Origin: Anaerolineae bacterium | GTDB lineage: Bacteria; Chloroflexota; Anaerolineae; Anaerolineales; UBA11579 | DNA length: 64,000 bases | Assembly (NCBI GenBank): GCA_004297445.1 | Contig: SCUK01000005.1 | Location: forward strand, 1 to 64,000 | Reading direction: 5' to 3' | Shown here: in pieces, positions 3,001 to 44,922 of the stretch | Numbering within the stretch: position 1 is the stretch's first letter | Layout of the letters: each line of letters starts with the position of its first letter | Program-made: the position numbers and the translations under genes | Notes under the pieces: model-generated | Databases searched by the model: none | Told to the model about the DNA's origin: nothing | What the model saw: the letters and a program-made list of their open reading frames with translations, nothing else

Positions 3001-3827
3001 TGCTGACTGCAGGCAGCCGTCTGAGCATGGCCGGCATCCCGCTGAGCGACACCGCGGCCTGGATTGGTGGGATGGGTTTGGGTCTGTACCTCCTGGCCCG
3101 GCTGACGGACGCCTACTGCTCCCGCAGCCAGCCCCGCCCGACCCGGCTGCGGGTCTGGGTCGTTCCAGCCACGAATATTTCGGTGATCTTGACCGGGTTG
3201 GGGGTAGTTTCGGCTCTCCCGGCGGCGTTCAGCAAACCCACGATTGCTGCGATTGCCTTTGGATTTGCCGGCGCGCTTTACGTCGCGGTGGCCTATCGCG
3301 GGCGGTACCACCGTCTGGGGTATGCCGGTATGGCCTTGCTGCTGGCAGCCTGGGTGATTCTGCTTGTGCAGCAGGAGGTGAGCGAACCGCAGTGGTACGC
3401 CATTCCCGCCGGGTTGTATTTTGTGACGATCGGTTTCCTGGAACGGCTGCGTGCCCGGCGCACGTTTGCCCTCCTGGTGGAAGGGTTTGGCCTGGCGGTG
3501 TTGCTCTTAACATCCTTTATTCAGTCGACCAACGGCGCAGCCGGATTCCCTTACTTCGTCCTGCTCCTGGCAGAAGGCTTGCTCGTCGCCTGGTGGGCGG
3601 CGGTTCAACAACTGCGAGTGCCGTTCCTGACAGGTGTGGCTGCTGTGGTCCTGAATGTCGTCGCGCAGGTCATCGTAACTCTGAGCGTGTATGACCGCTT
3701 CCGCTGGTTGATCATCCTGGGCGTGGGGCTGATGCTGGTGGCCCTGGCCGTAGTGATTGAGCGCCGGCGCGAGCGTATCGTGACGCAGGCTCGCGCCTGG
3801 CGCGAGACCATTGAGAGTTGGAACTAG
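1..3827 (+). CDS. Giant polytopic membrane protein, 5'-truncated, probable frameshift
   Basis: The reading frame is open from base 1, so the true start lies outside the window. It runs in frame 1 to a stop at 601-603, while the continuation lies in another frame (from about 573, 1084 aa). The switch sits at a run of seven G (555-561). Joining the frames there gives a continuous sequence with a module LDR-P-RYAHG-YL-GY at 618-668 that recurs at 1368-1418, so the break is a sequencing error or a real frameshift. More than 20 hydrophobic segments fill the length, with internal repeats suggesting duplication of a membrane unit. No catalytic motif is seen; function is unknown. The next gene starts 3 nt after the stop, indicating an operon. 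A related protein is encoded at 56.3-59.3 kb. Confidence 0.75.
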
Positions 3828-3830
3828 ACT

Positions 3831-5714: not shown

Positions 5715-5721
5715 GGGATCG

Positions 5722-7023: not shown

Positions 7024-7050
7024 TCCTACAGTACTTACGTTTAGCGTCCC

Positions 7051-9084: not shown

Positions 9085-9517
9085 GCCACTCTGTTTCGTG
9101 ACGGCTGCCAATTGCCGCAAGATTCCCGAAACGCTCCCAACCGGCACCAGTTACCAGACGCGAATCAAGTACGAATTCCCGGGCGGTGATGTTTGCAATG
9201 GAGTGGGAAGATGTTGCTGCGTATGTAAAGCAATTGCCTCGTAAGGCATCTGAAAACCATGCTCAGCCAATCGTCAGCGCTTCTTCCTCGCCCAGCGATG
9301 CGCTTGGATTGGAAAGAGGATTAGGCACAGTGGCGGTTTCGCCCGATTGTTTTCAGAGTTGTGCAATCATAGCATAATTAATAGTCAGTTGACGAACCGT
9401 ACTCTCGAGGCAAATACGGCGTCTGACTCGAAATTCAGAGCCGGTTTTTCGCGGTATTGCCCCCGGTCACACCCATTGGCATTCAGCGGCAACGAGACAA
9501 CCAGATGAAACCGAGGC
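9085..9517. other. Divergent intergenic region between kinase and lipoprotein genes
   Basis: About 430 bp between the kinase start and the promoter of the lipoprotein gene. A 63-codon open stretch on the plus strand (9186-9377) has no recognisable domain and no convincing ribosome-binding site, so I do not call it a gene. The kinase promoter should lie here but I could not fix it. Confidence 0.5.
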
Positions 9518-12885: not shown

Positions 12886-13045
12886 GATTTGGTTCAGTTA
12901 GAGGGGGTAATTTGCTCTTATGAGAACTGCGTTGTCTTCCGTCGCGAACGCGTCTCATTTCGTCAAACTGATGAACTCGCATTATAAGGTTTCCGGTTCA
13001 TCGAAATTTCGCATTTCGGGGGGTAGGCAATGGCAGAGCAGGTCA

Positions 13046-13230
13046 CTTCTCGATTTGCAGTCGGATTTGTAGTGGTGCAATTGTGGTGCAGTTGGTGTGG
13101 AAGCCCTGGAAAACCTGGCGATTTTGGACGTCGATTTACGCTTAGAATAGACGCAAAAGACGCAAAATCACGCAATTCTTAGGGTCCCAACCCACCGCTT
13201 GTTGCAGGTTCGAATCCTGCCGGGCCCACT
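13046..13230 (+). repeat. 185-bp direct repeat, left copy, ending in a tRNA 3' fragment
   Basis: About 85% identical to 39662-39846 in the same orientation. The last 38 bp or so form a tRNA T-arm (GCAGG TTCGAAT CCTGC, 13204-13220) followed by the acceptor strand CGGGCCCA; no D-arm or 5' acceptor strand is found upstream. The first half carries tandem GTGGTGCA sequences. The layout resembles attachment-site scars left by tyrosine-recombinase elements that integrate at tRNA 3' ends. Confidence 0.75.
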
Positions 13231-13292: not shown

Positions 13293-16200
13293 TTATTTTG
13301 ACCCGCCCATCAGCACCTGCACCTGATGAACCTGGCCGTCGTCCAGCAGTGGAATTGTGTCGCGGGGTTGCAGTTTCCCATCCAATAGTGTCCGCACAAT
13401 GCCCTGATTCACCCCATCCGGGTTCTCGACACTGATTTCATAGTGCGCTTTTCCAAAACGATAATCCACCTTGAATCCCGGCCACTCTTTTGGAATGCAT
13501 GGGTTAATCTTGAGCGCCGGCCCCAACCGGGAAATACCAAGGATGGCTTCAAGTCCAAGGCGATACATCCAGGCCGATGAACCTGTGTACCATGTCCAGC
13601 CTCCCCTTCCCACGTGCGCGGTTGCACTGTACACATCGGCGGCAATTACGTAGGGCTCCACTCTATAGCGCCCTACCTTTTCAGGCGTATCCGCGTGGCT
13701 AATCGGATTCAGCATGCGGAACAATTCTGCGGCCCGGTCTCCCTGTCCCAGTCTGGCAAACGCCCATGCGACCCAGATGGCGGCGTGCGTGTACTGCCCG
13801 CCGTTTTCGCGCACGCCGGGCAGGTAGCCCTTGATGTATCCCGGGTCACGCGCCGTATTGTCAAAGGGCGGGGTGAGCAACAGGATCATCTGCTCGTGGG
13901 GCAATACCAGCAGCCGGTTCACAGATTCCATCGCTGGTGCCGCCCTTGCCGGGTCTCCGCCCCCGGAGAGCACGGCCCAGGACTGCGCGACCGAATCGAT
14001 TTGGCATTCATTGTTCTCGCGGGTACCCAATCGCGAACCATCGTCATAGAATGCCCGTAAATACCACTCGCCATCCCAGGCATGCGCTTCAAGCGCGCCG
14101 GCGTTCTCTTTCGCTTGCTGCAAATAGGGTTGGGGGTCATCCTTCATCCGCTCTGCCAGCCCTGCAAATCCTTTCAGGGTAGCGTGCAGGAACCAACCCA
14201 GCCACACGCTCTCGCCGCGCCCCGCCACGCCCACCCGGTTCATGCCGTCGTTCCAATCACCGCCACCCATCAACGGCAGGCCGTGGATTCCGGTCGTCGC
14301 ACCTCTTTCCAGCGCCCGGCGGCAGTGTTCATACAATGTGAACGATTCCGATGCCACTGCAAACCGGGTATAGTGTTCGACTTCGGCCGGCTTCAGCGCT
14401 TCACCTTTGAGGAAGGGCAGGTTCTCGGTCAGTATCGACTCATCGCCCGTGGCCATAACATACTCCGCGGTGGCAAATGGCAGCCAGAGCAGGTCATCGC
14501 TATAACGCGTACGTACGCCTCGCCCCGAGGGCGGGTTCCACCAGTGCAGTACATCGCCCGCTTCAAACTGATGCCGCGCCGCCTCCAAGATTTGCGCCCG
14601 TGCCAGGTCTGGGCGCGTATGCAGCAGCGCCAGAACATCTTGAAGTTGGTCGCGGAATCCGAACGCCCCGCTGGATTGATACAGCGCCGTCCGGCCCCAC
14701 AGGCGGCAGGCCAGGGTCTGGGTGAGCATCCAGCGGTTGAGCATCAGGTCCATGCTGGCGTCAGGGGTATTCACCTGTACCGCCGAGAGGATGTCGTCCC
14801 ATTGCTGGTGAACAGCTTCCCAAATAGCCTCCGCCGCACCCTTCGCCTGCACCTGCTCAATCAGCGCAAGGCTTGCCGCGCGGTTGGCTCCCTGTCCAAG
14901 GAAGAAGGTCACGTCTTCGGTCGCGCCGGCGGCCAGGTCCACATGCAATTGCAGCGCGGCACACGGGTCCAACCCCGCATTGACCGCGCTGGCCAGCCCA
15001 ATCCGGCTGAGCGCCGCCGGATTGCGGTAATCACCCAGCCGGCCCAGAAACTCGGACCGGTCCGCCGTCACTCCGTGGGGCCTTTTGTTGGCCGCCAGAA
15101 ATGCCACTCGCTCGCCGAATTCAGTGTTGAAGCGATTGCTGGCCAGCAGCGCATGCCGCTCCGGGTCAAATTCCGGCAGGATATGCGCCTGCTGCAAATC
15201 GCGCGTCGTTCCCAGCACCCATTCTGCATAATAGGTGACCGTAATACGGCGTGGGCGCTGATTGAGATTTTGCAGACGCAGTTGCGCAATTTTTACCGGC
15301 GCGGCCGGTGCGACGAACAAACGCAGGGACTGATTCAGGTCATGGCTCTGGCTTTCAAAGGTGGAGTAGCCCGCCCCGTGCCGGACCATATGCCCGGTTT
15401 CCGCGCCAGCTGGCATCGGCGTTGGGCTCCAGACTTGCCCGGTTTCCTCATCTCGCAGGTAAATGACTTCACCCGGCATATCCGTCACTGGGTCGTTGCG
15501 CCAGGGGGTCAGCCGGTTCTCACCGCTGTTTTCAGCCCAGGTGCAGCCCGACCCCGCTTCGGAAACCAGGAAGCCAAACTCCGGATTGGCAATCACATTA
15601 ATCCACGGATGGGGGGTCTGTTCCCCGGGTTTCAGGTGAATGACGTACTCGCTTCCATCTTTGCTGAACCCACCGAGCCCATTCTCGAAGGTCAGACCGT
15701 CAGGGATTTGAAGCGGCGGCGACACAGCCTGTCCGGATTCCGCGGCTACTCCGGAGAGGGAAGGGGTGAACGCCGGGAGGCGTGTGGGCAGGGCGGTAAG
15801 GCGGCGAGCGTGCTCTGCGAGTGACCCGGTCTCTTCATCTAGTATCACGCCCGCCACAGTTTCAAACAGCAGCCTGTCGGCCGGCTGTATCTGGTCATCG
15901 CGCAGGATGAATATGCCTTCACGCTGGTTCAGCCAGCTGGTCGCACCCAGGCGCTCAACCTGACGCATGATGGCGTTGTGCAAGTCAAGGCCGTAACCCG
16001 TATCCTGTTCATTTAGGATCACCAGGTTGACCGTGACATACTGGCTGCGCCAGTAGGCAAAGGCCTGCAATGCTTCGGCAAGCAAATTCGATTCGCCATC
16101 GCGGACACGCACCAGCAGGATGGGGAAATCTCCGGAAATACCAAACGCCCACAACCCCGCCTGACCCTTGTCGTTCTGGGCCAGGATGTGTGGCGCGGCG

Positions 16201-19200
16201 CGCAGGTTCCCCATCGGGTAGAGCAGCGCCGATAACAGGCCCTGGAAGTCCTGGACCGCGGAGGCGTTCAGGCCCTGTTCGATGAGAACGCGTTCGCTGG
16301 CTCTGCGCGCCTCGCCGAGGGCACGCCGGGTGGATGTCCCAGACGGATAATGCGTCAACTTCTCCAGGGCTTCGGCCCGGCTGGGCGCCGCAAGCGTCAG
16401 GAAAGCAATTCGGGTTCTGACGTGCGGCTTCAGGGTGATTTCCTGTGTCAGCGAAAATATCGGGTCGAGTGTTCCGCCGGTCGTGCCGGAGGGCCGGTGA
16501 ACCGCATCCACCAGGGCCAGCGGCGCGCGTGCGGTCTGGCCGCGGCCCAGAAATTGGGCCCGGTCGCTTTCATACTCGATGCTTCCGCGCGCGCCGGCAT
16601 CGCTGACGAGCGCATGAATCAGCACCACCGGTTTTTCGTCGGGAGTGCGCGGTCGGCGCTCGAAAACTATCGCCCGCTCTCTGGGGAGATAGTCACTCTC
16701 GATGAAAAGTTTGTTGAACGCCGGATGGCGCCGGTCAGCGGCTTGCGCCGCCAGTGCCACTTCGCCATAGCTGGTCAGTTTCAGCCGCCGCGGCCGGTCG
16801 CTGTCGTTCAAGATACTGATGTGGCGGATTTCGACGCCACCCGCGCCAACCGCGATTTCAGTGCGCAGGGAAATGCCATTGTCCCAACGCCGGAATTCGG
16901 CTTTGTATGGATAAAACATCACATCCTGATGCTCCGGCCTGCACCCGACCGGCTGGCAGGTGGCCGACCAGAACGCCCCACTCTCGCAGTCCTGGACGTA
17001 GATCCACGTCCCCCACGCGTCAAGCGTACTGTCGGCCTGCCAGCGCGTCAGGGCAAACTTACGCCACTGGCTGTAACCTCCCCCTGCATTGGTGATCATC
17101 ACGCTGGCATCCCCCTGAGTCAGGACATGCACCTGTGGCATGGGGGTATCAAGCGGCACGCGCCACGGCGCGCTGCTCACTGCGCGTAGCGGCTCGGGAG
17201 CTTCCGTGGGTTGGCCGGTGTGCGGGAATTCCAGCGGCGCATCCAGTGAGATTTTTTCCTGAAGCAGAAGTTCCACACTTTTGACGCGCTCGTCGGCATG
17301 GAATCGCTGCACCATCACATCGCCGGAGAGGTAATTGCAGGCAGCCACCAAGATCATGCCCTGATGGTGTGCCATGTACGATTGCACGATGGCATATTCC
17401 CCCCCGGCCGGGATGCGCGTCTTGGAATAATCGAGTGCCTCATAGAAGCCAAACCGCCCAAGCATTTTCAGCCGTTCCAGGTGTGCCATGTTCTCCAGCA
17501 CCGCCTGCGGTTGCAGGGATAGCCCAAGCAGCGACGCGTACGGTGCGATCACCAGCCCTTCGTGTAGCTCGCGTTTATAGCCGAGGTCCGGCACGCCAAA
17601 CGCTCGATACTGGTAGTTCTGGTTGACATCGAATCCATAGTATCCAGATTCTGAGATGCCCCACGGCGCCTGCCGCTCCCGCCTGTAATTTGCCTGCGCG
17701 TCGAGCGCTACATAGCAGCTATCTGCCAGAAACGTCCCAGGATAATTCTTAACAAACAGGGTTGGCATGAGATATTCAAACATCGTCCCGCTCCAGGAGA
17801 GCAATAACTGTTTGTTGTTCACCTCTGTCACGGGCCGTCCCAGATGCTGCCAGTGGCTTTGGGTTACATCGCCTTTGGCAATAGCAATCAAGCTCGCCAC
17901 GCGGGCTTCGGAAGCCAACAAATCATAGAAACTTGGGTCGAGCAGTTCAGTGGTCGCGTTGTAGCCAATGTGAAAGACCTGACGACGCGAATTGAATAGG
18001 AAGCGGAAATCCATGCCGGTCATGGCGGCCTCTGCCTGCTCAATCAGACCTCGGAATTCAGCCATCAGGGAGATGACCGTGATTCGTGCGGAAGTCAGAT
18101 TTGCAGCCAGTTCCTGGCACCAGGTACAGTCCGCAATCCCGTCCACATCGACCATGAAGCGACTCAACGCCACCTGTATTCGATAATACACCCCGGCCGC
18201 CTCGCCAAGAGTGAACGGTTCTCCGGGCAAGCTGTCCTCAAATTCCTGCCAGGCTGGCATGTGCATAAACTCCTGCGGCGGTGCATTCAGCAAACGCAGC
18301 CACGGCGCGAATAGATCCTGGCTGCGCTGCATCGTCTGCAAATGATGATTCATCAAGTCGAGAAAAAGTTTGAGTTCGGTCACCGAGTCGAGCTGGAGAT
18401 CCGGATGACTCTCGAGGAGATTCAGCAAACGACGCGAGATTTTCTCCCAACTTTCCCCGGCGAGCCAGTCGAGCGTCCCCGTCCAGTCTGCGGGCCGCTT
18501 CTCAGCCGCGCGGATGCGCTGATGGATATGGGCAAATTCGTCTTCGAAAGATTCATCCGCCGCGCCCGGGTAATCTTTTTCCAGGGCCCGCAGCGATTCG
18601 GACAGAATATCCAGGATGGTGAGCAATCCCTGCCACGGCTTCTCTCCCAGCACCGGCGCTTGTTCCATCGTCAACAGGCCCTGTTTGAGTGTGATCAAAC
18701 TGGCCGCGAGGTTGCCGCTGTCCACGGTAGAGATGTATCGCGGCGGGAGCGCGACCAGCGTCTGAGAGTCGTACCAATTCAACAGATGCCCGCGGTGATG
18801 TTCGAGCCTGTCCATGGTATCAAGGGTTGAACGCAGGCGCACTGCCAGCTCTGAAAGGCCAATGTAGCCCAAATCATGTGCCGCCAACGTGGATACCAGT
18901 AACAGACCGATGTTTGTCGGCGTGGTGTAATGCGCAACACTTCCAAGCGGCGATTCCTGAAAATGGTCAGGCGGCAGCCAGTGATCTTCAGGGCCGACGA
19001 ATCTTTCAAAAAAGGCCCAGGTGCGCCGGGCCAGGCGCAGAACTTGCTTGCGCTGCGGTTCTGACAGCGGCGGGGGGTTGTGCAGCACCGGCTTGCTGAT
19101 GCTGTAGGCAAGTTGCGGCGCCAGCAGCCAGCCGATCAACACCGGAATCGCCACCCAGAACGCGGCTGGGTTGAGGACCGCCACGGCTGCCCCCAACAAG

Positions 19201-21794
19201 ATCGTTAAGACCAGCGACGGCGCCATCACACTCCAGTTGGCGTAACGCGCATTTACCTTCATTGCCCGGGTCACATTCGCCGCCGTGGTCCATTGCAGGA
19301 GTTTCTTGTGGGCGATAAATAAGCGAACCAGCGTGGTGCCAATCGCGCCCAACGTCAGCAGGGCTTCGTGGGGTAGGAATAGAACAGACAGGGCCCAACG
19401 CATGAGCGGCAGCCGGATTGGCATGACCACTTGCCTGAGAGTCAGCCGCCCGCGCTTGTGCAAGCTTCGTCGTACGGCTTGCGCCACGATCGGCAACGCT
19501 GAGGGCAGCAGAGCCAGCCCGGTCCATACCAGGGGCGAGCCGGGCAGGAATAACCAGCCAGCCGCTAATAGTGCCAACAGGGAGGGCGGCAGCAAACTGC
19601 GCCTCAGGTTGTCAAATACCTTCCAGAGGTTGATTACGGATAAACGATTGCGGGCCCTGCCGGTTTCAGTATGGACGATAGGGAAAAGCCAGGGCAGCAA
19701 TTGCCAGTCACCCCGAACCCAACGCCGCAGGCGGCGGGCATAGGCCATATAGATCGCCGGATAATCCTCGTACAGGATGACATCCGTCACCAATGCCGCG
19801 CGCCCATAAATCCCCTCAAACAGGTCATGGCTGAGCAGGGTGTTATCGCGCACCTGTCCGGCCAGGCTGCGCTCAAAAGCGGTGACATCATAGATGCCCT
19901 TGCCCACATAACTTCCCTCGCCAAAAAGGTCCTGATAAACATCCGAGACGGCAAAGGAATACAGATCAAACCCCGGGTTTCCGGCAAAGACCTGGGCAAA
20001 GAGTGAGCGGTTCGCGCTGGTTGGTTTCACCGTCACCCGCGGCTGCAGCACGGTATAACCGGCCACCACCGAGCGCCCATCCTCTGCGAATTCGGCATGA
20101 TTAAGCGGATGTGCCAGGGTAGCGATCAACCGGTTGGCGCTGCCCTGCGGCAACGACGTGTCCGCGTCCAGCGTGATGACATATTTGATCCCGGGCAGAA
20201 TCCCAAGATTCCCCACCTGCGATGTGTAGGATGTCTCTCCTTTGCCAAGAAGCAGGTGATTGAACTCGGCCAGTTTGCCGCGCTTGCGTTCCCAACCCAT
20301 CCACACCCCCTCAGACTGGTTCCACTCACGCTGGCGGTGGAATAAGTAAAAGGGCGCCGTCTCTTCGTATTTCCGATTCAGGCCATCCACTCCCGCCCGC
20401 GCCAGTTCCAGCAATTCCTGGTCTTCCGGCATGTCCTGCGCCGGCGCATCTCCGAAGTCGGTCAGCAGCGCAAACGTCAGTAGCGGGTCGGGGTTGGCAA
20501 GGTAAGCGAGCTCCAGCCCTTGCAGGAGATGATTGAGTTCGCCTGTGCTTTCGAGCAAAGTAGGGAACACCACCATGGTGCGGATTCCCGGGGGGATGCC
20601 ATCAGAAAAATCCATTCGTGGCAGGCTTTGCGGTCCAATCCGGTGAGTGATATTCCAATGCACAATGGTGACCGCCGACTCCAACGCCAGCCCAAGCCCA
20701 AGCGCCCCAAGGAGGATGAGTTCGGCAAGTGAGCCGCCGGCAAGCCGCGCGTAGCTGAGCAGCCCCAATACGAATAACCCCGAAATAATTGCGATGCTTC
20801 CCAGATAGGTGAGGGTCGGCGCTGCCAGCAGCGCGCGGCGAACGCGGATGCTCAACCCGCGCTGATAGCGGATTTCATCTTCCAACATCCTGCGGCCCGC
20901 ATCCCGCAGATAGAACCCCACGTGCGCTTTTCGACCACCGGATGTTGGAAATTCATCCTCGGCCAATCCAATCGCAGCGTGTGCGACCTCTTCTTCGCTG
21001 AAATCCGAATGCCGCGCCAGGTCTTCAATCACGCTGCGGTAACTGTTACGGGTCTCAAAATCCATCCCCGCGTAGACGGATGTGGGGTCCCGGCGTAAAA
21101 TCTGTTCCACCCGGCTGACTTGCTCAAAGAAGTCATTCCAGTCCGTGGCGGAGAGCAGGCGCAGGCTCAGAAAACAGTTGGCAACGATTGACTCATTTGG
21201 CAGCGCCTGGGAAGCGAACTGGCGCGGGAGTTCATTCAGGCTTTTCGGCGTCTTCACACCTGTCAGTTCCGTGGCGGCGTAGACCAGCCGCTCAAGAAAC
21301 CCAATGCGCAGCATGATGGGCAGCGCCCACAGCTCACCAATCGTCAGTGGCGTTACCTCTTGATAGTGCTGAACAAAAGTCGCCAGGCCGGTCAGGTCAA
21401 TCTGGCTCTGGCTGTATCCAATCCATTCCCATGCCAGCCCAAAAATTCGCGGAGTTCCTTGCCCCACCGTCCCACCTAATTTGGGCAATTGCGCAAGAAA
21501 GCTGGCGGGTAAGTCTTCCTGGATTTGAACGAAGGTTTGTTTTACAACATAGAAGTTATCCAGCATCCACTCGCCTGCCCGCGAAATCGGCGCGTCTTTC
21601 GCCGGCAGGGTCCTGAATACGGAATGAGCCGCGCCCAATCCCAGTTCCCAGCTTTCAAGACGCTCCAGGAGGTCGCTCTTCGCTGACCGGGATAAGTCAA
21701 GGCTGTGGCTCCCTGCCAATTGACGCGCGAATTTACTCAGCTCGGACTCTGCATTTCGATCAGGGGAATCAGGGAAGGTCGACTGCGATTCCAT
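13293..21794 (-). CDS. Cyclic beta-1,2-glucan synthase-like protein (NdvB/ChvB type)
   Basis: 2833 aa, matching the roughly 2830-2870 aa of rhizobial and Brucella cyclic glucan synthases. Domains in order: an N-terminal soluble region; membrane helices near residues 330-380; a glycosyltransferase (GT84) domain with the DxD motif in LDADTSLP (about residue 540) and the Q/RxxRW-type RRWVRGDW (about 690); more membrane helices at 730-900; a glycoamylase-like domain (FGVPDLGYKRELHEG, about 1400); and a C-terminal GH94 phosphorylase-like region with GGGDWNDGM (about 2510). It should polymerise UDP-glucose at the inner membrane face and trim or cyclise the product, giving osmoprotective periplasmic-type glucans. 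Cyclisation in this lineage is inferred. It follows a universal stress gene by 9 nt. Confidence 0.88.
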   Translation of the reverse strand: MESQSTFPDSPDRNAESELSKFARQLAGSHSLDLSRSAKSDLLERLESWELGLGAAHSVFRTLPAKDAPISRAGEWMLDNFYVVKQTFVQIQEDLPASFLAQLPKLGGTVGQGTPRIFGLAWEWIGYSQSQIDLTGLATFVQHYQEVTPLTIGELWALPIMLRIGFLERLVYAATELTGVKTPKSLNELPRQFASQALPNESIVANCFLSLRLLSATDWNDFFEQVSRVEQILRRDPTSVYAGMDFETRNSYRSVIEDLARHSDFSEEEVAHAAIGLAEDEFPTSGGRKAHVGFYLRDAGRRMLEDEIRYQRGLSIRVRRALLAAPTLTYLGSIAIISGLFVLGLLSYARLAGGSLAELILLGALGLGLALESAVTIVHWNITHRIGPQSLPRMDFSDGIPPGIRTMVVFPTLLESTGELNHLLQGLELAYLANPDPLLTFALLTDFGDAPAQDMPEDQELLELARAGVDGLNRKYEETAPFYLFHRQREWNQSEGVWMGWERKRGKLAEFNHLLLGKGETSYTSQVGNLGILPGIKYVITLDADTSLPQGSANRLIATLAHPLNHAEFAEDGRSVVAGYTVLQPRVTVKPTSANRSLFAQVFAGNPGFDLYSFAVSDVYQDLFGEGSYVGKGIYDVTAFERSLAGQVRDNTLLSHDLFEGIYGRAALVTDVILYEDYPAIYMAYARRLRRWVRGDWQLLPWLFPIVHTETGRARNRLSVINLWKVFDNLRRSLLPPSLLALLAAGWLFLPGSPLVWTGLALLPSALPIVAQAVRRSLHKRGRLTLRQVVMPIRLPLMRWALSVLFLPHEALLTLGAIGTTLVRLFIAHKKLLQWTTAANVTRAMKVNARYANWSVMAPSLVLTILLGAAVAVLNPAAFWVAIPVLIGWLLAPQLAYSISKPVLHNPPPLSEPQRKQVLRLARRTWAFFERFVGPEDHWLPPDHFQESPLGSVAHYTTPTNIGLLLVSTLAAHDLGYIGLSELAVRLRSTLDTMDRLEHHRGHLLNWYDSQTLVALPPRYISTVDSGNLAASLITLKQGLLTMEQAPVLGEKPWQGLLTILDILSESLRALEKDYPGAADESFEDEFAHIHQRIRAAEKRPADWTGTLDWLAGESWEKISRRLLNLLESHPDLQLDSVTELKLFLDLMNHHLQTMQRSQDLFAPWLRLLNAPPQEFMHMPAWQEFEDSLPGEPFTLGEAAGVYYRIQVALSRFMVDVDGIADCTWCQELAANLTSARITVISLMAEFRGLIEQAEAAMTGMDFRFLFNSRRQVFHIGYNATTELLDPSFYDLLASEARVASLIAIAKGDVTQSHWQHLGRPVTEVNNKQLLLSWSGTMFEYLMPTLFVKNYPGTFLADSCYVALDAQANYRRERQAPWGISESGYYGFDVNQNYQYRAFGVPDLGYKRELHEGLVIAPYASLLGLSLQPQAVLENMAHLERLKMLGRFGFYEALDYSKTRIPAGGEYAIVQSYMAHHQGMILVAACNYLSGDVMVQRFHADERVKSVELLLQEKISLDAPLEFPHTGQPTEAPEPLRAVSSAPWRVPLDTPMPQVHVLTQGDASVMITNAGGGYSQWRKFALTRWQADSTLDAWGTWIYVQDCESGAFWSATCQPVGCRPEHQDVMFYPYKAEFRRWDNGISLRTEIAVGAGGVEIRHISILNDSDRPRRLKLTSYGEVALAAQAADRRHPAFNKLFIESDYLPRERAIVFERRPRTPDEKPVVLIHALVSDAGARGSIEYESDRAQFLGRGQTARAPLALVDAVHRPSGTTGGTLDPIFSLTQEITLKPHVRTRIAFLTLAAPSRAEALEKLTHYPSGTSTRRALGEARRASERVLIEQGLNASAVQDFQGLLSALLYPMGNLRAAPHILAQNDKGQAGLWAFGISGDFPILLVRVRDGESNLLAEALQAFAYWRSQYVTVNLVILNEQDTGYGLDLHNAIMRQVERLGATSWLNQREGIFILRDDQIQPADRLLFETVAGVILDEETGSLAEHARRLTALPTRLPAFTPSLSGVAAESGQAVSPPLQIPDGLTFENGLGGFSKDGSEYVIHLKPGEQTPHPWINVIANPEFGFLVSEAGSGCTWAENSGENRLTPWRNDPVTDMPGEVIYLRDEETGQVWSPTPMPAGAETGHMVRHGAGYSTFESQSHDLNQSLRLFVAPAAPVKIAQLRLQNLNQRPRRITVTYYAEWVLGTTRDLQQAHILPEFDPERHALLASNRFNTEFGERVAFLAANKRPHGVTADRSEFLGRLGDYRNPAALSRIGLASAVNAGLDPCAALQLHVDLAAGATEDVTFFLGQGANRAASLALIEQVQAKGAAEAIWEAVHQQWDDILSAVQVNTPDASMDLMLNRWMLTQTLACRLWGRTALYQSSGAFGFRDQLQDVLALLHTRPDLARAQILEAARHQFEAGDVLHWWNPPSGRGVRTRYSDDLLWLPFATAEYVMATGDESILTENLPFLKGEALKPAEVEHYTRFAVASESFTLYEHCRRALERGATTGIHGLPLMGGGDWNDGMNRVGVAGRGESVWLGWFLHATLKGFAGLAERMKDDPQPYLQQAKENAGALEAHAWDGEWYLRAFYDDGSRLGTRENNECQIDSVAQSWAVLSGGGDPARAAPAMESVNRLLVLPHEQMILLLTPPFDNTARDPGYIKGYLPGVRENGGQYTHAAIWVAWAFARLGQGDRAAELFRMLNPISHADTPEKVGRYRVEPYVIAADVYSATAHVGRGGWTWYTGSSAWMYRLGLEAILGISRLGPALKINPCIPKEWPGFKVDYRFGKAHYEISVENPDGVNQGIVRTLLDGKLQPRDTIPLLDDGQVHQVQVLMGGSK

Positions 21795-29360: not shown

Positions 29361-31289
29361 ATGGTTAAAGCCGTGAAGTCCAAAGCAAAAGCCAAAGCCA
29401 AAGCTCAGGCAACCAAAATACCCAAATTGACCTTGAAGGATTCGGAGTTGCGCTACCGCCGCCTCTTTGAAACCGCCCAGGATGGCATCCTGATTCTGGA
29501 AGCCAAGACCGGGAAGATTGAGGATGTCAACCCCTTTCTGGCTGACCTCCTAGGCTACGCGCGGGAAGAGTTCATCAACAAGCGTCTCTGGGAGTTGGGC
29601 GCGTTTCAAGACATACAGGAAAGCAAACAAGCGTTTGAGGCTCTTCAGCAGAATGAATACATCCGTTACGAAGACTTGCCCCTGAAGACAAAGAACGGTG
29701 ACTTGATAGACGTTGAGTTCGTCAGCAACGTCTACTTCGTGGGCGCAAAGAAAGTCATTCAATGCAACATTCGTGACATCACGGCTACCAAGCAGGCGGT
29801 GAAGGACTTACGCCTGAGTGAAGAACGCTTCCGTGCCCGCATCGAAAACTCGTCTGACCTGATTACCGTGGTCGACATGGATGGCAATGTTCAATACGTG
29901 AGTCCCTCCATTGAAAGGTTGTTGGGATATTCACCGGAAGCGTTCATCGGCACAAACATCCTTGAAAAAATCCATCTCGATGACCATCAGGAGATGATGG
30001 ACGACTTTCAAAAACTCTCATCAGGATTAATCAAGACAGCCCAGGCTGAAATCCGATTCCTTCATCAGGATGGGTCGTGGCGCATATTTGAGGGGTCAGG
30101 GAGAACGTATCTGAATGTCAGGGGCGATTTGGTCGCCATCGTCAATTCGCATGACATCACGGAACGCAAGATTTCAGAGGCGCTTATCCTGCGCCAGCTC
30201 GATTACCTGACGGCAACCGGCCAAATCGATCGCCTCATTGCCGGCAATCAGAACTTATCTCAAGTCCTCGAACAAATCCTCATTCATGTAGCCAAAGAGC
30301 TTGACGTGGATGCGGTGGATATCCTGGTCTTCAGCCCGGAATCTCACCGCTTGAAATATTCCGCCGCGCATGGCTTTCGCACCGTTTGGGACAAGCATGC
30401 CAGCGTACGGCTGGGCGAGAGTTATGCCGGCCGCGCTGCCCAGGAGCGCCGCACTCTCCAGATCCCGGATCAAGAGGGCGTGCCGAATCCGGAATTCTTT
30501 GCCGAGCTCTTCCCGAAGGACGATTTTGTTTGCTATTTTGGCGTCCCTTTAATCGCCCGCGGACAACTCAAGGGAGTCTTGGAAATTTTCAACCGCACTG
30601 CATTGGCAGCCGACACACGATGGCTTGACTTTCTCCATTCCCTGGCGGCACAAACCGCTATTGCGCTTGAAAGCGCAGCCCTTGTCGAAAATCTGCAGCA
30701 CGCCAATCTCGAACTGAGCGCTGCCTACAATTCCACCATTGAGGGCTGGTCGCGTGCTCTGGATATGCGCGACGAGGAAACTGCCGGCCATTCCATGCGC
30801 GTGACCGAAATGACGCAGAAACTTGCCGTCCAATTCAATTTGCCGGAGGCAGAACTGATTCAGATTCGTTGGGGCTCCCTGCTGCACGACATTGGCAAAA
30901 TGGGCATCCCGGACGAGATTCTCCTCAAGCCCGGCCCTCTGACCGAAGCCGAATGGGTAATCATGAGAAAACACCCGGTTTTCGCCTACCAGATGCTGTC
31001 CCCGATTCGCTATTTGCGCTCCGCGCTGGACATCCCCTATTGCCACCATGAGAAGTGGGATGGCAGCGGCTACCCGCGCGGCCTGCGAGGCGATGAGATT
31101 CCATTCGGCGCCCGCATCTTTGCCGTTGCGGATGTTTGGGATGCCCTCACCTCCGAGCGTCCGTATCGTCCTGCCTGGACCGAAAAGAATGCACTGGCCC
31201 ATATTCGCGAATCATCCGGCACACACTTCGACCCACAGGTCGTTGAGCTATTTATGCAGACTGCAGAAAAGACAGGCCCCAGACCATGA
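29361..31289 (+). CDS. PAS-PAS-GAF-HD-GYP c-di-GMP phosphodiesterase
   Basis: 642 aa. A lysine/alanine-rich start (KSKAKAKAKAQ) precedes two PAS domains (about residues 30-150 and 155-275), a GAF domain (about 285-440) and an HD-GYP domain (about 460-635). The catalytic motifs are present: HSMRVTEM, LLHDIGKMGIPDE, CHHEKWDGSGYP and VADVWDALT. It should hydrolyse cyclic di-GMP in the cytosol. The next gene, a diguanylate cyclase, overlaps by 4 nt and carries a very similar first PAS domain, so the two opposing enzymes may read the same input. Confidence 0.93.
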   Translation: MVKAVKSKAKAKAKAQATKIPKLTLKDSELRYRRLFETAQDGILILEAKTGKIEDVNPFLADLLGYAREEFINKRLWELGAFQDIQESKQAFEALQQNEYIRYEDLPLKTKNGDLIDVEFVSNVYFVGAKKVIQCNIRDITATKQAVKDLRLSEERFRARIENSSDLITVVDMDGNVQYVSPSIERLLGYSPEAFIGTNILEKIHLDDHQEMMDDFQKLSSGLIKTAQAEIRFLHQDGSWRIFEGSGRTYLNVRGDLVAIVNSHDITERKISEALILRQLDYLTATGQIDRLIAGNQNLSQVLEQILIHVAKELDVDAVDILVFSPESHRLKYSAAHGFRTVWDKHASVRLGESYAGRAAQERRTLQIPDQEGVPNPEFFAELFPKDDFVCYFGVPLIARGQLKGVLEIFNRTALAADTRWLDFLHSLAAQTAIALESAALVENLQHANLELSAAYNSTIEGWSRALDMRDEETAGHSMRVTEMTQKLAVQFNLPEAELIQIRWGSLLHDIGKMGIPDEILLKPGPLTEAEWVIMRKHPVFAYQMLSPIRYLRSALDIPYCHHEKWDGSGYPRGLRGDEIPFGARIFAVADVWDALTSERPYRPAWTEKNALAHIRESSGTHFDPQVVELFMQTAEKTGPRP

Positions 31290-32227
31290 CCACTGAAACC
31301 CAGCAATCCGAAACTTACCTCTCCCTGGCGCAGTCCGAACTGCGCTACCGCCGCCTCTTTGAAGCCGCCCAGGATGGCATCCTGATTCTGGATGCCCAGA
31401 CCGGCGCCATCACCGATGTCAATCCCTACATGGTCTCCATGTTGGGCTATTCACGCGATGAATTCATACAAAAAAAGCTCTGGGAAGTAGGCGCATTTCG
31501 CGATATCGAAGCCAGCAAGGATGCCTTCCTCGTGCTCCAGCGGGAGGAATACATCCGCTACAGAGATTTGCCGCTCAAGGCCAGGGATGGGCGCCTGGTC
31601 CAGGTGGAGTTCGTCAGCAACGTCTATCAGGCCGGCAGCGAACGGGTGATTCAATGCAACATCCGCGACATCACCGATCGCAAACACGCCCACGATGCCC
31701 TGGTCAGGAGCGAAGCCATCCTGCGCGAAGAGTCCGTGCGCGACCACCTCACCGGCCTGTTTAACCGCCGTTATCTGGAAGAGACTCTCCAACGCGAATT
31801 GGATCGCGCCTATCGCAAACACCTCACGATGGGACTCATCATGCTGGATACCGATAACCTCAAACGATTCAATGACACCTGGGGCCACGCCGCCGGGGAT
31901 GGCGTCCTGAAGGAATTGGGCATCCTGCTGCTTGGGCAATTTCGGGGTGAAGATGTCGCCTGCCGCTATGGCGGCGATGAATTCGTCATCCTGCTGCCGG
32001 ATACCACCCTGAAATCGACCTATGAGCGCGCCGAGAAACTCTGTGAATATGCCAAAAGACACTCCCACATCATTGAGGGCCAGGCCTACCAGGCCGTCTC
32101 GCTTTCGCTGGGCGTCGCCGCGTTTCCCCAGCACGGTTCAAGCAGCGACACTCTTATGCGAGCCATTGATGCTGCACTGTATCACGCCAAGCACGAGGGC
32201 CGCGGCCGCGTCGTCATTGCAGAATAG
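31286..32227 (+). CDS. PAS-GGDEF diguanylate cyclase
   Basis: 313 aa. The PAS domain (about residues 15-135) closely follows the first PAS of the preceding phosphodiesterase (shared SELRYRRLFE-AQDGILIL, EEYIRY-DLPLK, VEFVSNVY, VIQCNIRDIT). The GGDEF domain (about 150-313) has an intact CRYGGDEF active site, and RGED five residues before it matches the RxxD inhibitory site, implying product feedback. It has no membrane segment. It is coupled to the upstream gene by an ATGA overlap. It should make cyclic di-GMP from GTP. Confidence 0.95.
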   Translation: MTTETQQSETYLSLAQSELRYRRLFEAAQDGILILDAQTGAITDVNPYMVSMLGYSRDEFIQKKLWEVGAFRDIEASKDAFLVLQREEYIRYRDLPLKARDGRLVQVEFVSNVYQAGSERVIQCNIRDITDRKHAHDALVRSEAILREESVRDHLTGLFNRRYLEETLQRELDRAYRKHLTMGLIMLDTDNLKRFNDTWGHAAGDGVLKELGILLLGQFRGEDVACRYGGDEFVILLPDTTLKSTYERAEKLCEYAKRHSHIIEGQAYQAVSLSLGVAAFPQHGSSSDTLMRAIDAALYHAKHEGRGRVVIAE

Positions 32228-39610: not shown

Positions 39611-39661
39611 TTAACTCATTCCCGGCCAGTCCTATTTGTCAGGCAATCGTAGAACCGACAG

Positions 39662-39846
39662 CTTCTCGATTTGGGGTCGGATTTGTCGTGGTGCAATTGT
39701 GGTGCAGTTTGTCTGGAAGCCCTCGAAAATCCGGCGGTTTTGAACGTCACTTTAGGCTTAGAATAGACGCAAAAGACGAAAATCCACGCAATTTTTTGGA
39801 TCCCAACCCACTGCTCGGTTGCAGGTTCAAATCCTGCGGGCCCACT
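39662..39846 (+). repeat. 185-bp direct repeat, right copy, ending in a tRNA 3' fragment
   Basis: Same orientation and about 85% identity with 13046-13230. It ends in a T-arm (GCAGG TTCAAAT CCTGC) and GGGCCCA acceptor strand; the rest of a tRNA is missing. Tandem GTGGTGCA lies at 39688-39706. The two copies enclose about 26.4 kb of stress and envelope genes. Confidence 0.75.
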
Positions 39847-39877
39847 TTTGGCTGGTTGAGGAACAGAGGAGAGCGCA

Positions 39878-42800
39878 TTGGCCACCACCAACCTGATCGG
39901 TTCCACCATCAGTGACCGCTATGAACTGGCCGAAGAATTGGGCCACGGCGGCATGGGCACGGTGTACCGCGCTACCGATATCCGCCTGAAGCGCGACGTC
40001 GCCCTCAAAATCCTCTCCAACACGCATATCGGCACGGAAGGGCGCGCTCGCATGCTGCGCGAAGCCCAGACCGTCGCAAAACTGAGCCATCCGAACATCG
40101 TCACGGTGTTCGATGCCGGCGAACACGAAGAAATACCTTACATCGTGATGGAACTGGTGCAGGGCAAGACGCTGGCTGAACAGCCGCCCAAAGACCTGGA
40201 TGAGGCTGTGGCGCTCACCATTAAAATCTGCGCTGCGCTGGCTCATGCCCACGGGCAGGGCATCATCCATCGCGACCTGAAGCCGGAAAATGTCATTCGC
40301 CAGTCGGGCGGGACGCTGAAACTGATGGACTTCGGGCTGGCGCGCTCGGTTAGTTCGCGCATGACCCAGGAAGGCACGATCATCGGTACCGTGTTCTACA
40401 TGGCCCCCGAACAGGCGATGGGTGACGAGACCACGCCGGCCGCCGACCTGTATTCGCTGGGCGTGATGTTGTATGAAATGCTCACCGGCAGCCTGCCCTT
40501 TGAGGCCAGCGACCCGATCGCCGTCATCACTCAGCACATCCACGCGCCGGTTGTGCCGCCGCGAGCGCGTCGTGAAGACATCCCCTTTCATCTGAATGAA
40601 CTGGTCGTACGGCTATTGAGTAAAGACCCGGCCGCCCGGCCGCAGAGCGCCGCCGAGGTCGCCGCGGCGCTGGAATCGCCCGCCGAGGATGCCGCCCCGG
40701 CGCGTGAGGAGGTGTCCGAACTTGAACGCATTGTGCGCGGTCGCATCATCGGCCGCGAAGATGAAATGCGCGAGGCGCGCCAGTTGTGGGGAAGAGTAGC
40801 GGAAGGGCAGGGGCAGTTGCTGCTCATCTCCGGCGAACCGGGGGTGGGCAAGACCCGCTTCACGCGCGAGGTCATCACCCATGCCGAAGTGGCCGGCGCG
40901 TTGGTGTTGCAGGGCGCCAGTTATGCCGAAGGCGGCATGCCCTATTCGGCGTTTCGGGCTGTGCTGCGGCGAGCCCTGCGCAGCACCCCCGCCAAAGCGC
41001 TCGACATCCCGGCAGACATCCTCAAGGACCTGCTCACCCTGACGCCGGAACTGCGTTCCAGCTTCCCCAACCTTAGAGATGTGGACACCGGCGAACTGCC
41101 TGACCCGCAGCAGTTGATCGAGAGTTTCGTCGTGTTTATTAATATGCTCGGCCAGAAGGCACCGCTGCTGCTGGTGTTGGAAGATGTGCACTGGGCGGAC
41201 AGCGGCAGCCTGGCTCTGTTGCGCCATTTGGCGCGTGCCACGCGCGAAAGCCAGGTAATGGTGCTGGTGAACTACCGCGAAGTAGAGATTCACGAGAACC
41301 GCGCCTTTCACGATATCCTTCTGGACTTCAACCGTGAGCGACTCGGGCATCGTGTCAAGCTGGGGCGGTTGGACCGTGAGCAAACCCGCACCATGTTGGG
41401 GGGTATGTTCCGCGAAGAGATCACGGATGAATTTCTGGATGGCATCTACCGCGAGACCGAGGGTCACCCGTTCTTCATTGAGGAAGTATGCAAGGCGCTG
41501 GTGGAAAGCGGCAAACTCTATTTCAAATATGGTAGTTGGCACCGCCCCAGCATCCGGGAGTTGGGCATCCCCCAGAGCGTCCAGGTCACCATTCAGGCCC
41601 GGTTGGATCAACTGTCTGCCGAGGCGCAGGACCTGCTCAGGCAGGCCGCCATCCTTGGGCGCGAGTTCGACTTCCGTATTTTGCAGCGCGCCGCCGGCTT
41701 GGATGAACTGGAGTTGATTGACGTCCTCGAACAGGCCGAGAAGGCCCAACTGGTGGAAGAAGTGAAAGAGCAGGGCGAAGGCACGCTCTTCGCCTTCGTG
41801 CATGCCCTCATCCCCGCCACGCTGGTGGAAGACACCCGCACCATACGGCGACGGGTGATGCACCGCCGGGCGGGCGAAGCGCTGGAATCCCTGGCTCCGG
41901 CCAACCTGCCGGCGCTGGCCTATCACTTCACCGAAGCTGGAGAAGCCGAAAAAGCCACCCGCTACCTGCTGGAGGTGGGTGACCGGGCGGCGCAATTGCA
42001 TTCCCTTCAGGAAGCCGCCCACGCCTATTCCCAGGCGCTCGACCACCTGCGCGAATCCGGCGAAGAGGAGCGCGCCTATCGCACGCTGCTCAAACTGGCG
42101 TTGACCTATCAGAAAAGCCTCGATTTTGACGCCAGCAACCGCGCTTACGATGAGGCCTTTCAATTACAGAAGCGGATGGGCAGCGCCCGCGCCGGCCAGT
42201 CCCTTGCCCCCGCGCCGCACCCGTTTCGTTTTACGGTGGGCGCGCCCGGTGATCTGGACCCGGTGATGTATGTTGAAACCAATACCGCCCTCATTGTGCG
42301 CCAGATGTTCCTGGGCCTGGTAGATGCCGCGCCGGATGGGACGATTCATCCGGCGATGGCCGAACGCTGGGAAATCCTGGAAGGCGGCCAGAAAGCCGTT
42401 TTCCACATCCGGCGCGACGCACGCTGGAGCGATGGCCAACCCGTGACGGCCGACGATTTTGAATTTACCTTCAAGCGCATCCTGACGCCGGAGACGGCCG
42501 CGCCACTCGCCAGCCTGCTCTACCCGATCAAGAACGCAGAGGCCTTCCATACGGGACGACTGAAGGATGCGGACGCCGTCGGGATACGCGCTGCGGACAA
42601 AGTCACCCTTGAAATCACGCTCGAACGGCCCACCGGCTACCTGCTGCCCTTGCTGGCGGGCGGCGGCTGCTATGCCACCCCGCGCCATGTGGTTGAGAAA
42701 CATGGCAGCGAGTGGACCCGCCCTGAAAACATCGTCTGCAATGGCGCGTTTGTGTTGGTTGAATACGAGCCGGACAGTCACCTGAGCATGCGGCGCAATC

Positions 42801-43729
42801 TGCATCACTTTGCGTCCAGGCGCGGCAACGTGGAGGAATTGGTCATCCTTGTTCGAAAGGCCGATGACAAATCCTACGAAGATTACCAGCAGGACAAAAT
42901 CGACGTGCTGATCCTTAATTGGCTTCCGACCGAACAGGCCGAGCACGCCCGCCGGCGCTACCCGGATGAAATCCTTACTGTGGGCGGCATAAACGTCGGA
43001 ACACTGGTCATCTACCCGACCCATCCGGCGCTGGCGGATGTGCGCGTGCGCCAGGCATTGAGTCTCGCCATCGACCGCGACTACCTGTGCGGCAAGGTAT
43101 GGCAGAACCTGTCGGTTCCGGCTACCGGCGGCCTGGTGCCGCCCGGCGTGGCGGGGCATTCGCCTGGAATCGGCCTGGGGTATGACCCCCTGCGCGCCCG
43201 GCGACTGCTGGCCGAGGCGGGCTACTCGAACGGAGAGGGTATCCCACCGCTGAAGAGCATCGGCGCCGACACCGGCTGGCAGCCGCGGTTGCAGGAGTAT
43301 CTCGTCGAACAGTGGGCGGAAGTGCTTGGGATTCAAATCGAGTTTGAGCAGATGCCCTATGTCCAGCAATTGAATGCCTGGGGTCATGCGATTACCAGCG
43401 GAAATCCCTACCCGGTTGCCATCGGCGGCTGGAACGCGGACTATCCCGACCCGCATAACTACCTGTGGGATTACGTCCGCTTTACGTTGCCCCAGTGGAA
43501 GCATGAGCGCTACGAAGCCCTGATGGCGCAGGCGATCGATTCACAGGTCCAGGCGGAACGCCTGCGGCTCTATCAGCAGGTAGATAAGTTGGTTATCGAA
43601 GAATGTCACATCATCCCGGTGGTGCATGGCATCCTGCAGCAGTTGACAAAGCCGTGGATTAAGAGCGAGTTTGCCCGCTTGTATGTGTCGGCTCCCTTAT
43701 TTGACGATATTATTCTGGTTGAGCATTGA
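39878..43729 (+). CDS. Ser/Thr kinase-AAA ATPase-solute-binding-domain fusion
   Basis: 1283 aa from a TTG with GAGGAGAG upstream. Residues about 15-265 are a full Hanks kinase (GHGGMGTVY, K44, H131-R132-D133, MDFGLA, YMAPEQ). Residues about 285-560 are an ATPase with Walker A GEPGVGKTR (about 319) and LLLVLEDVHWAD (about 435), like the AAA_16 modules of large regulators. A helical, TPR-like part (about 640-760) follows. Residues about 785-1275 are a family 5 extracellular solute-binding (oligopeptide/nickel-binding) domain (DARWSDGQPVTADDFEFTFKR, WNADYPDPHNYLWDYV in separate places). No signal peptide or membrane helix is seen, so the binding domain is cytosolic, as in the SgrR regulator. A sensor for a peptide or sugar-like ligand is inferred. 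Confidence 0.85.
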   Translation: MATTNLIGSTISDRYELAEELGHGGMGTVYRATDIRLKRDVALKILSNTHIGTEGRARMLREAQTVAKLSHPNIVTVFDAGEHEEIPYIVMELVQGKTLAEQPPKDLDEAVALTIKICAALAHAHGQGIIHRDLKPENVIRQSGGTLKLMDFGLARSVSSRMTQEGTIIGTVFYMAPEQAMGDETTPAADLYSLGVMLYEMLTGSLPFEASDPIAVITQHIHAPVVPPRARREDIPFHLNELVVRLLSKDPAARPQSAAEVAAALESPAEDAAPAREEVSELERIVRGRIIGREDEMREARQLWGRVAEGQGQLLLISGEPGVGKTRFTREVITHAEVAGALVLQGASYAEGGMPYSAFRAVLRRALRSTPAKALDIPADILKDLLTLTPELRSSFPNLRDVDTGELPDPQQLIESFVVFINMLGQKAPLLLVLEDVHWADSGSLALLRHLARATRESQVMVLVNYREVEIHENRAFHDILLDFNRERLGHRVKLGRLDREQTRTMLGGMFREEITDEFLDGIYRETEGHPFFIEEVCKALVESGKLYFKYGSWHRPSIRELGIPQSVQVTIQARLDQLSAEAQDLLRQAAILGREFDFRILQRAAGLDELELIDVLEQAEKAQLVEEVKEQGEGTLFAFVHALIPATLVEDTRTIRRRVMHRRAGEALESLAPANLPALAYHFTEAGEAEKATRYLLEVGDRAAQLHSLQEAAHAYSQALDHLRESGEEERAYRTLLKLALTYQKSLDFDASNRAYDEAFQLQKRMGSARAGQSLAPAPHPFRFTVGAPGDLDPVMYVETNTALIVRQMFLGLVDAAPDGTIHPAMAERWEILEGGQKAVFHIRRDARWSDGQPVTADDFEFTFKRILTPETAAPLASLLYPIKNAEAFHTGRLKDADAVGIRAADKVTLEITLERPTGYLLPLLAGGGCYATPRHVVEKHGSEWTRPENIVCNGAFVLVEYEPDSHLSMRRNLHHFASRRGNVEELVILVRKADDKSYEDYQQDKIDVLILNWLPTEQAEHARRRYPDEILTVGGINVGTLVIYPTHPALADVRVRQALSLAIDRDYLCGKVWQNLSVPATGGLVPPGVAGHSPGIGLGYDPLRARRLLAEAGYSNGEGIPPLKSIGADTGWQPRLQEYLVEQWAEVLGIQIEFEQMPYVQQLNAWGHAITSGNPYPVAIGGWNADYPDPHNYLWDYVRFTLPQWKHERYEALMAQAIDSQVQAERLRLYQQVDKLVIEECHIIPVVHGILQQLTKPWIKSEFARLYVSAPLFDDIILVEH

Positions 43730-43818: not shown

Positions 43819-44922
43819 CTATCCCGTCCCCCCCAGCACTCCAATCACCGAAACTGAAGCAATCACCGCCAGGATGGCCCCCAGCCCCCAGCCAATCACC
43901 ACCCAGGCGGCCTGCTTGCCGAGGATGCCCGGCTCCAGCCGCCGGATGTGCCGCACCGCCAGCCCGCCCGCAAACAACCCCACCGCGAACACCGTCCCCA
44001 GCATCGCAATCACAAACACAAACGCCAGCACCACAAACGCCGCAATCGCCCCGCCGATGATTTGCCCGAAACAATCCTCCAGCCCCGCGCATTCCCCGCC
44101 GCCGATAATGGAAGCGACGTCCACCGAGAGTGTGCCGAGGATGCCGGCCGCCGCCGCGCCCACCGGCCCCACGATACCCCAGATGCGAATCGAGGCCGCC
44201 ATGTGCTTCCAGCCGATGCTGGGCGCGTTTCGCCGCAAAGCAAACATGGTGAACAGCCCCGCCAGCAGTCCGCCAATCGCCCCGCCCACCAGCCCGCCCA
44301 CCGGGAACAGCGCGAAGTCTTCAATCGCTTCGCCGTCGCCAAACAGGGACACCAGCAGCGGGAACACCACCCAGAAGAGTCCCCAACCCAGCGCCCAGGC
44401 CGCCGCCCAGCCAAACGCCTTGCCGAAGACTGCCCCCCATTTCACCTTGACCGTGTCCGTCAGGATGGCGCGGCGCCGCGCGTCCATTTCCGCCGGCGTC
44501 ATTTCCGGCGCGTCCTTCAGCGCCACGCCCAGCGCCACCAGCCCGCGCGCCAGGTCGGCGAAATTCTCCGCATAGCCGCCCTTGTTGAACCAGATGTACT
44601 GGTGGTCGCCGATCTGCGCTTCCACCGTGGGCGGTACTTTGGTCTGCCGGTAGAACAGCGGGATGATGGCCTTCTTGTGCGCCTCGGCCATCGCCAGTTC
44701 CTGTTGCACGTACTGGGACTTGACCGAGTCCGGCGAGAGCACCAGCAGGAACGCCGCGCAGTCCGTCACCGCGTCTACCAGCGCCTTGCGCCAGTCTGCC
44801 CCGGGGTGGATGTCGCCCTTGTCCAGCCACACGGCCAGGCCGCGCGCTTCCAGGTCGGCCGCCAGCCGTTTGACGAATTCCAAATCTTTGCGGGAATAGC
44901 TGATAAAGACGCGCTGCGCCAT
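43819..44922 (-). CDS. TIR-domain membrane protein
   Basis: 367 aa. The N-terminal TIR domain (about residues 4-130) opens with VFISYSRKD and includes WLDKGDIHPGADW, LLVLSPDSVKSQYVQQEL with E75 in the place of the NADase glutamate, and AIIPLFYRQ. A linker of about 40 residues is followed by five to six glycine-rich hydrophobic helices to the end. TIR proteins with membrane tails may cleave NAD in defence or act as scaffolds; which applies is not known. There is no neighbour typical of Thoeris or CBASS. It is convergent with the fusion kinase gene. Confidence 0.85.
   Translation of the reverse strand: MAQRVFISYSRKDLEFVKRLAADLEARGLAVWLDKGDIHPGADWRKALVDAVTDCAAFLLVLSPDSVKSQYVQQELAMAEAHKKAIIPLFYRQTKVPPTVEAQIGDHQYIWFNKGGYAENFADLARGLVALGVALKDAPEMTPAEMDARRRAILTDTVKVKWGAVFGKAFGWAAAWALGWGLFWVVFPLLVSLFGDGEAIEDFALFPVGGLVGGAIGGLLAGLFTMFALRRNAPSIGWKHMAASIRIWGIVGPVGAAAAGILGTLSVDVASIIGGGECAGLEDCFGQIIGGAIAAFVVLAFVFVIAMLGTVFAVGLFAGGLAVRHIRRLEPGILGKQAAWVVIGWGLGAILAVIASVSVIGVLGGTG

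Follow-up and report, generated by a model that had tools for sequence, protein, structure and literature searches.

In a 64,000-nucleotide stretch of DNA from an Anaerolineae bacterium (assembly GCA_004297445.1, contig SCUK01000005.1, positions 1 to 64,000; hereafter the window), one gene on the forward strand, 39878..43729, encodes a protein of 1283 residues in which a Ser/Thr protein kinase, a nucleoside triphosphatase (NTPase) like those of the STAND family (signal transduction ATPases with numerous domains), three tetratricopeptide repeats (TPRs) and a family 5 solute-binding protein (SBP) domain follow one another in a single chain. This fusion protein is probably a STAND-type cytosolic one-protein receptor, in which the peptide-type SBP would sense a ligand, open the NTPase, drive assembly and activate the kinase. 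The known kind to which it would belong is the STAND receptor; the surprising part is that its sensor behaves as a cassette.

The initial annotation, made from the DNA letters, described an intact Hanks-type kinase and a Walker A/B ATPase, and profile searches bear both out. The kinase domain (residues 15-258; 39920..40651, + strand) matches Pfam PF00069 with an E value of 4e-53 and 180.9 bits against a cut-off of 31.7. Its catalytic residues are intact (K44, D133 and N138 within HRDLKPEN, D151 of the DFG motif, and APE at 176-178), and in NCBIfam it resembles PknB-type kinases. Residues 290-462 (40745..41263, + strand) match the AAA_16 profile PF13191 (E 1e-25, 91 bits against a cut-off of 32.6) and carry the Walker A lysine K325 in GEPGVGKT and the Walker B residue D436 in LLLVLED; a GxP motif, G529-P531 in EGHPFF, is likewise intact. 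The protein thus has the sequence hallmarks of a STAND NTPase: a P-loop, a Walker B acidic pair and a GxP motif, with a kinase N-terminal and TPRs C-terminal to them. The remainder of the NTPase module (residues 463-646; 41264..41815, + strand) appears to comprise the GxP at 529, a helical, winged-helix-like portion and 'arm'-like helices, and is 38-62% conserved among close kinase-type homologues. Residues 275-733 match the TOMM system kinase/cyclase fusion family TIGR03903 (E 4e-85), which has a kinase and the same NTPase-helical region; however, the window protein scores 286 bits, far under the 706-bit family cut-off, and has a different C-terminal end, TIGR03903 lacking an SBP. What had been noted as a helical linker proved to be six helices, i.e. 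three TPRs, at residues ~647-770 (41816..42187, + strand), seen as helices in the model and as TPR_12 matches in homologues.

The C-terminal domain (residues 777-1283; 42206..43726, + strand) had been called a full family 5 solute-binding domain, and both profile and structural comparison agree. Residues 822-1199 match SBP_bac_5 (PF00496) with an E value of 2e-73 and 247.8 bits against a cut-off of 32.4, and in NCBIfam the C-terminus resembles OppA-like proteins. An AlphaFold2 model of residues 777-1283, built from six sequences, reached a pLDDT of 83.7 and a pTM of 0.82, and its nearest solved structures, in unliganded and liganded forms, are DppE, MppA (murein tripeptide) and OppA (Z 37-38.6, about 38 overall, with 482-495 residues aligned). 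The model therefore predicts the entire two-lobe OppA fold. The likeness to OppA, MppA and DppE extends to 22-27% sequence identity and to the Asp419/Trp416 anchor of the binding cleft. Asp419 of OppA, which holds the peptide N-terminus (numbering checked by alignment), corresponds to D1188 of the window protein (codon 43439..43441, + strand), and an acidic residue, D or E, occupies this position in 28 of the 33 fused SBP domains. The Trp416 equivalent is retained in 30 of the 33, and that of Ala418 is conserved too. Entropy at these three cleft positions is 0.6-1.4 in the fused clade, against a median of 2.2. The equivalents of R413, K307, H371, Y109 and E276, the carboxylate and side-chain contact residues of OppA (numbering again checked), are lost and variable across the fused family. 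Between related pairs of fused proteins, the ratio of nonsynonymous to synonymous substitution rates (dN/dS) in the SBP domain is 0.15-0.29, so the domain is under purifying selection in the relatives and is not degenerate in them. These sequence comparisons indicate that the binding cleft is maintained with its amino-terminal anchor, and that the selectivity of the fused domains has probably diversified. Because the cleft and the anchor are kept, peptide-like ligands are favoured over sugars for the predicted sensor.

The gene is one uninterrupted frame of 1283 codons that begins with TTG at 39878, as the annotation had stated. Only six more open codons precede this start before a stop; homologues begin at roughly matching sites, and a Shine-Dalgarno-like sequence, AGAGGAGAG (39865..39873, + strand), places AGGAG 6 nt ahead of the TTG. 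Neither a sigma-70-like promoter nor a terminator could be recognised around the gene start. A stop, frameshift or mis-join can be excluded as the origin of the fusion because at least 11 other contigs, from different assemblies, encode kinase, NTPase, TPRs and SBP5 in identical order, which also rules out an assembly chimera or read-through of separate genes. As claimed at the outset, the protein has no signal peptide, the kinase already beginning at about residue 8, and no segment resembling a membrane helix. Hydrophobicity is highest (1.67 over 19 residues) at residue 416, in a stretch that leads into the Walker B strand. A secreted or membrane protein is accordingly rejected, and the fusion protein is, as judged from its sequence, cytosolic. 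Ordinary SBP relatives mostly have visible lipoboxes or signal peptides, and OppA, MppA and DppE belong to ABC importers as secreted or lipoprotein subunits, whereas the fused clade is cytosolic and separate in the tree (99/99). Nor does the window protein look like a transporter subunit: its SBP follows TPRs in one chain, and no permease was recognised nearby.

Of 400 genomes of the order searched with a TPR-SBP profile, at least 18 have the TPR-SBP5 unit, and one more has it cut short by a contig end; among 400 genomes from across the phylum Chloroflexota the number is at least 9. Both counts are minima, because scoring covered three candidates per genome. Fused matches begin in the TPRs and score 545-868 bits, whereas none of the listed ordinary SBPs exceeds 397 bits. 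The distribution is patchy, and the unit is missing from two other genomes of the genus. The search for the same domain order that the annotation had recommended found kinase-NTPase-TPR-SBP5 proteins at L039, L040, L041, L022/L200, L031/L201, L183, L184, L185, L186, L188 and L196, and 13 proteins bearing the unit have a kinase output. The same architecture with an extra N-terminal BTAD domain occurs at L042. That SARP-like BTAD domain, the kinase, the NTPase and SBP5 lie in one protein (4242-8495), whose SBP part is interrupted in the contig by a stretch of N, and this protein possibly carries two outputs on one sensor. Elsewhere the unit is preceded by a class III cyclase (L149, L154, L191, L192, L194, L195 and L197), a double cyclase-like N-terminus (L155, L157 and L158, with L156 gapped), a BTAD/SARP regulator (L152, L153 and L190), or CHAT and cyclase-like domains (L150); in three proteins no N-terminal output was recognisable (L151, L189 and L198). 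The L150 protein is a single frame of 1674 aa (995-6016, - strand) with a CHAT protease domain, a cyclase-like domain, NTPase, TPR and SBP5. Where relatives of the window protein have no SBP, a longer TPR array occupies that position, as in the L040 paralogue. At L182 (247-7838) and L183 a second kinase/NTPase gene, which gave no SBP match, immediately precedes the fusion gene, and the two may act together as a receptor pair. In a plasmid search, the matches listed covered the SBP part alone, starting after the TPRs. As judged by these comparisons, the window protein belongs to a family and is not a single curiosity.

Phylogenetic analysis points to a common origin of the fused sensors and to a mixed ancestry of the proteins that carry them. 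In a tree of 61 SBP domains, 33 fused domains split from 28 ordinary SBPs on one branch (support 99/99, 98% of bootstraps). Within that tree the output types interleave, with four changes for kinase and six for cyclase. In a tree of the NTPase region, SBP-bearing and SBP-less proteins are intermixed, and several placements conflict between the two trees with strong support. Thus the kinase proteins L186, L188 and L201 are sister to the cyclase proteins L191 and L192 in the SBP tree (99/92), whereas in the NTPase tree the former fall within the common kinase-NTPase clade (100/99) and the latter group with L151, L183 and L184 (100/100). Segment identities follow the same division. The window protein shares 48-64% identity with SBP-less kinase relatives across the kinase domain and 40-50% across the NTPase core, but just 26-41%, often over partial length, in the TPR linker; compared with SBP-bearing cyclase and BTAD relatives, it is 24-40% identical in the NTPase core and 30-50%, over nearly full length, in the linker. 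These values put the border of the cassette at about residue 670. Because of the segment identities and the tree conflicts we conclude that TPRs and SBP travel together, the TPRs forming the first part of the moving cassette, and the comparisons indicate that a single cytosolic TPR-SBP5 cassette has recombined with several NTPase and output backbones. Its history may have been one of repeated gain, or of gain and loss; the trees are compatible with either.

An effector followed by a P-loop NTPase that carries Walker A/B and GxP motifs, then by a helical arm and TPRs, is the layout of STAND ATPases with a TPR sensor, such as MalT and PH0952, and also of AfsR/SARP proteins and bacterial STAND Ser/Thr kinases. 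Unlike in MalT and PH0952, three TPRs and a complete OppA-type SBP stand where most of the superhelix would be. Among the effectors known for bacterial STANDs are Ser/Thr kinases (PMC6468293). Activation of MalT and PH0952 begins when the sensor binds its inducer; the arm then releases the NTPase core, and exchange of ADP for ATP is followed by assembly (PMC4381067, PMC6468293). By analogy, a cytoplasmic peptide-like ligand with a free amino group, for which imported oligopeptides, the cell wall and protein breakdown are candidate sources, would bind between the two lobes of the OppA-type domain. Closure of the SBP would be passed through the TPR and arm helices to the NTPase, which would open, swap ADP for ATP and assemble, and assembly would gather the N-terminal kinase domains for trans-autophosphorylation and signalling. 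In other family members the same sensor would drive class III cyclases and SARP/BTAD DNA-binding regulators. Cyclases and SARP regulators work as dimers or higher assemblies, and one sensor could serve kinase, cyclase and SARP outputs because all of them act as dimers or multimers. We infer here that the SBP binds a ligand, that this ligand is peptide-like, that control runs from sensor to output and that the protein assembles. The sensor reading is backed by the location of the SBP at the STAND sensor position, by purifying selection, by the four kinds of output and by the kept Asp. The one-protein circuit first proposed for this gene, in which ligand binding by the C-terminal domain controls kinase or ATPase activity, therefore stands in part: an internal C-terminal SBP sensor remains the best reading of the comparative evidence, while direct control of the kinase gives way to the STAND NTPase as the most likely switch.

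Several observations weigh against this receptor reading. The absence of the OppA carboxylate-binding residues R413, K307 and H371 means that sequence does not fix the ligand class, and the window SBP sits on a long branch (1.18) of the SBP tree. PDB sequence searches with the NTPase gave no significant match, and a profile search with it found no solved STAND structure, an absence that is not itself evidence against STAND membership. An AlphaFold2 model of residues 282-1283, built from five sequences, was poor (pLDDT 62, pTM 0.39) and gave no usable domain arrangement, the Foldseek list obtained from it being occupied by the SBP part. Finally, the fusion genes lack conserved neighbours, and there is no peptide importer next to the window gene; because of the former, the window protein is likely self-contained. 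The less probable but serious alternative is that the SBP is a protein-interaction or scaffold module, with unfolded polypeptides, partner polypeptides or a transporter subunit as possible targets, activation following from partner binding and not from small-ligand sensing. The high variability of the side-chain and C-terminus contacts in the fused clade would fit such a role, the TPRs of STAND proteins can serve as sensor by themselves (PMC6468293), and SBPs dock on partner receptors (PMC9602780). However, a pure scaffold would not need the strongly conserved cleft equivalents of Asp419, Trp416 and Ala418.

The surroundings of the gene raise a further possibility. The gene begins 33 bp past one copy of a 205-bp direct repeat (39641-39845), ~85% identical to 13025-13230, in agreement with its described position directly after a repeat. 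Both copies end in a sequence like a tRNA 3' end (GGTTGCAGGTTCAAATCCTGCGGGCCCAC at 39817-39845); no tRNA gene was found in the window, and a partial third copy lies elsewhere in the genome (contig C25). The two repeats are possible attachment sites of an island of ~26 kb. Directly downstream and convergent (43819-44922, - strand) is a gene for a protein in which several hydrophobic stretches, probably spanning the membrane, come after a TIR domain (PF13676). Beyond it lies argS, upstream of which similarity to two genomes of the same genus ends at ~45018; the TIR gene, the fusion gene and the region before them are thus in a variable region. The convergent TIR gene and the variable region, together with high scores of the kinase domain against models of PD-T4-6 and other defence kinases, would suit an anti-phage kinase whose SBP detects a phage-derived peptide, with the TIR gene in the same defence island. 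We regard this as improbable: the PADLOC matches are limited to the kinase domain, which is generic, defence neighbours are not conserved at other fusion loci, and the cyclase and SARP outputs are ordinary regulators. Slightly less probable still is that the SBP is a chaperone-like carrier handing on imported peptide under control of the kinase and NTPase, for although SBP5 proteins are carriers for ABC importers (family knowledge; PMC9602780), no recurrent permease or transport gene was found at the 14 fusion loci inspected, and the presence of the same unit on cyclases and DNA-binding regulators points to sensing.

Other features of the window were recorded alongside. Two more Ser/Thr kinases are encoded at 10065-12155 and 7051-9147 (both - strand), one of them carrying WD40 repeats and the other having its kinase at the C-terminus, and the genome holds at least 12 Ser/Thr kinases of such kind. 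A 2833-aa protein (13293-21794, - strand) combines GH94 catalytic, supersandwich and glucoamylase-like domains and is cyclic glucan synthase-like. A duplicated PAS coding region (29431-29797 and 31323-31689, 70-80% alike and 1892 bp apart) has one of its two PAS-like stretches inside a PAS-GAF-HD gene (29361-31289).

Intracellular SBPs in signalling proteins have precedents, as the initial annotation had recognised in citing SgrR. Surveys have pointed out that Pfam profiles for SBPs pick up sensor domains of cytosolic regulators as well (PMC9602780), and DsvR is a cytosolic SBP_bac_5 transcription factor (PMC13060122). SgrR and DsvR share with the window protein an intracellular SBP_bac_5 fused to a signalling output and the lack of a signal peptide. 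They are, however, two-domain DNA-binding regulators with a helix-turn-helix (HTH) domain and without NTPase, TPR or kinase; the window protein has no HTH domain, its SBP is preceded by kinase, NTPase and TPRs, and in its family the SBP stands behind a STAND module with kinase, cyclase, SARP or CHAT outputs. In the GlnH-GlnX-PknG system of Actinobacteria, too, a solute-binding protein controls a Ser/Thr kinase that has a TPR domain, but there three proteins act across the membrane and the SBP is an extracytoplasmic lipoprotein binding Asp/Glu, whereas the window protein is a single cytosolic chain (PMC9769921). A literature search, with most subscription papers outside its scope, returned no account of this domain combination or of SBP5 as a STAND sensor.

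If the receptor reading holds, its sensor has a fold, a pocket and a ligand chemistry that are well understood, and the domain can be expressed alone and screened, making the chain from ligand through NTPase switch to output testable. To our knowledge, an inducer has been assigned to only a minority of bacterial STAND proteins and Ser/Thr kinases. A sensor common to kinase, cyclase and DNA-binding outputs would provide a natural set of interchangeable one-component receptors. More tentatively, and with somewhat less than an even chance in our estimate, Chloroflexota may possess an intracellular receptor cassette for peptides that plugs into different proteins. An OppA-type domain, domesticated once and joined to three TPRs, would have been transferred again and again to STAND kinases, cyclases, SARP regulators and CHAT proteins, and its constant N-terminus anchor and diversifying side pockets would let different proteins read different cytosolic peptides. 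Were this true, the plug-in cassette would be a bacterial counterpart of NLR receptors with a solute-binding protein as the sensor.

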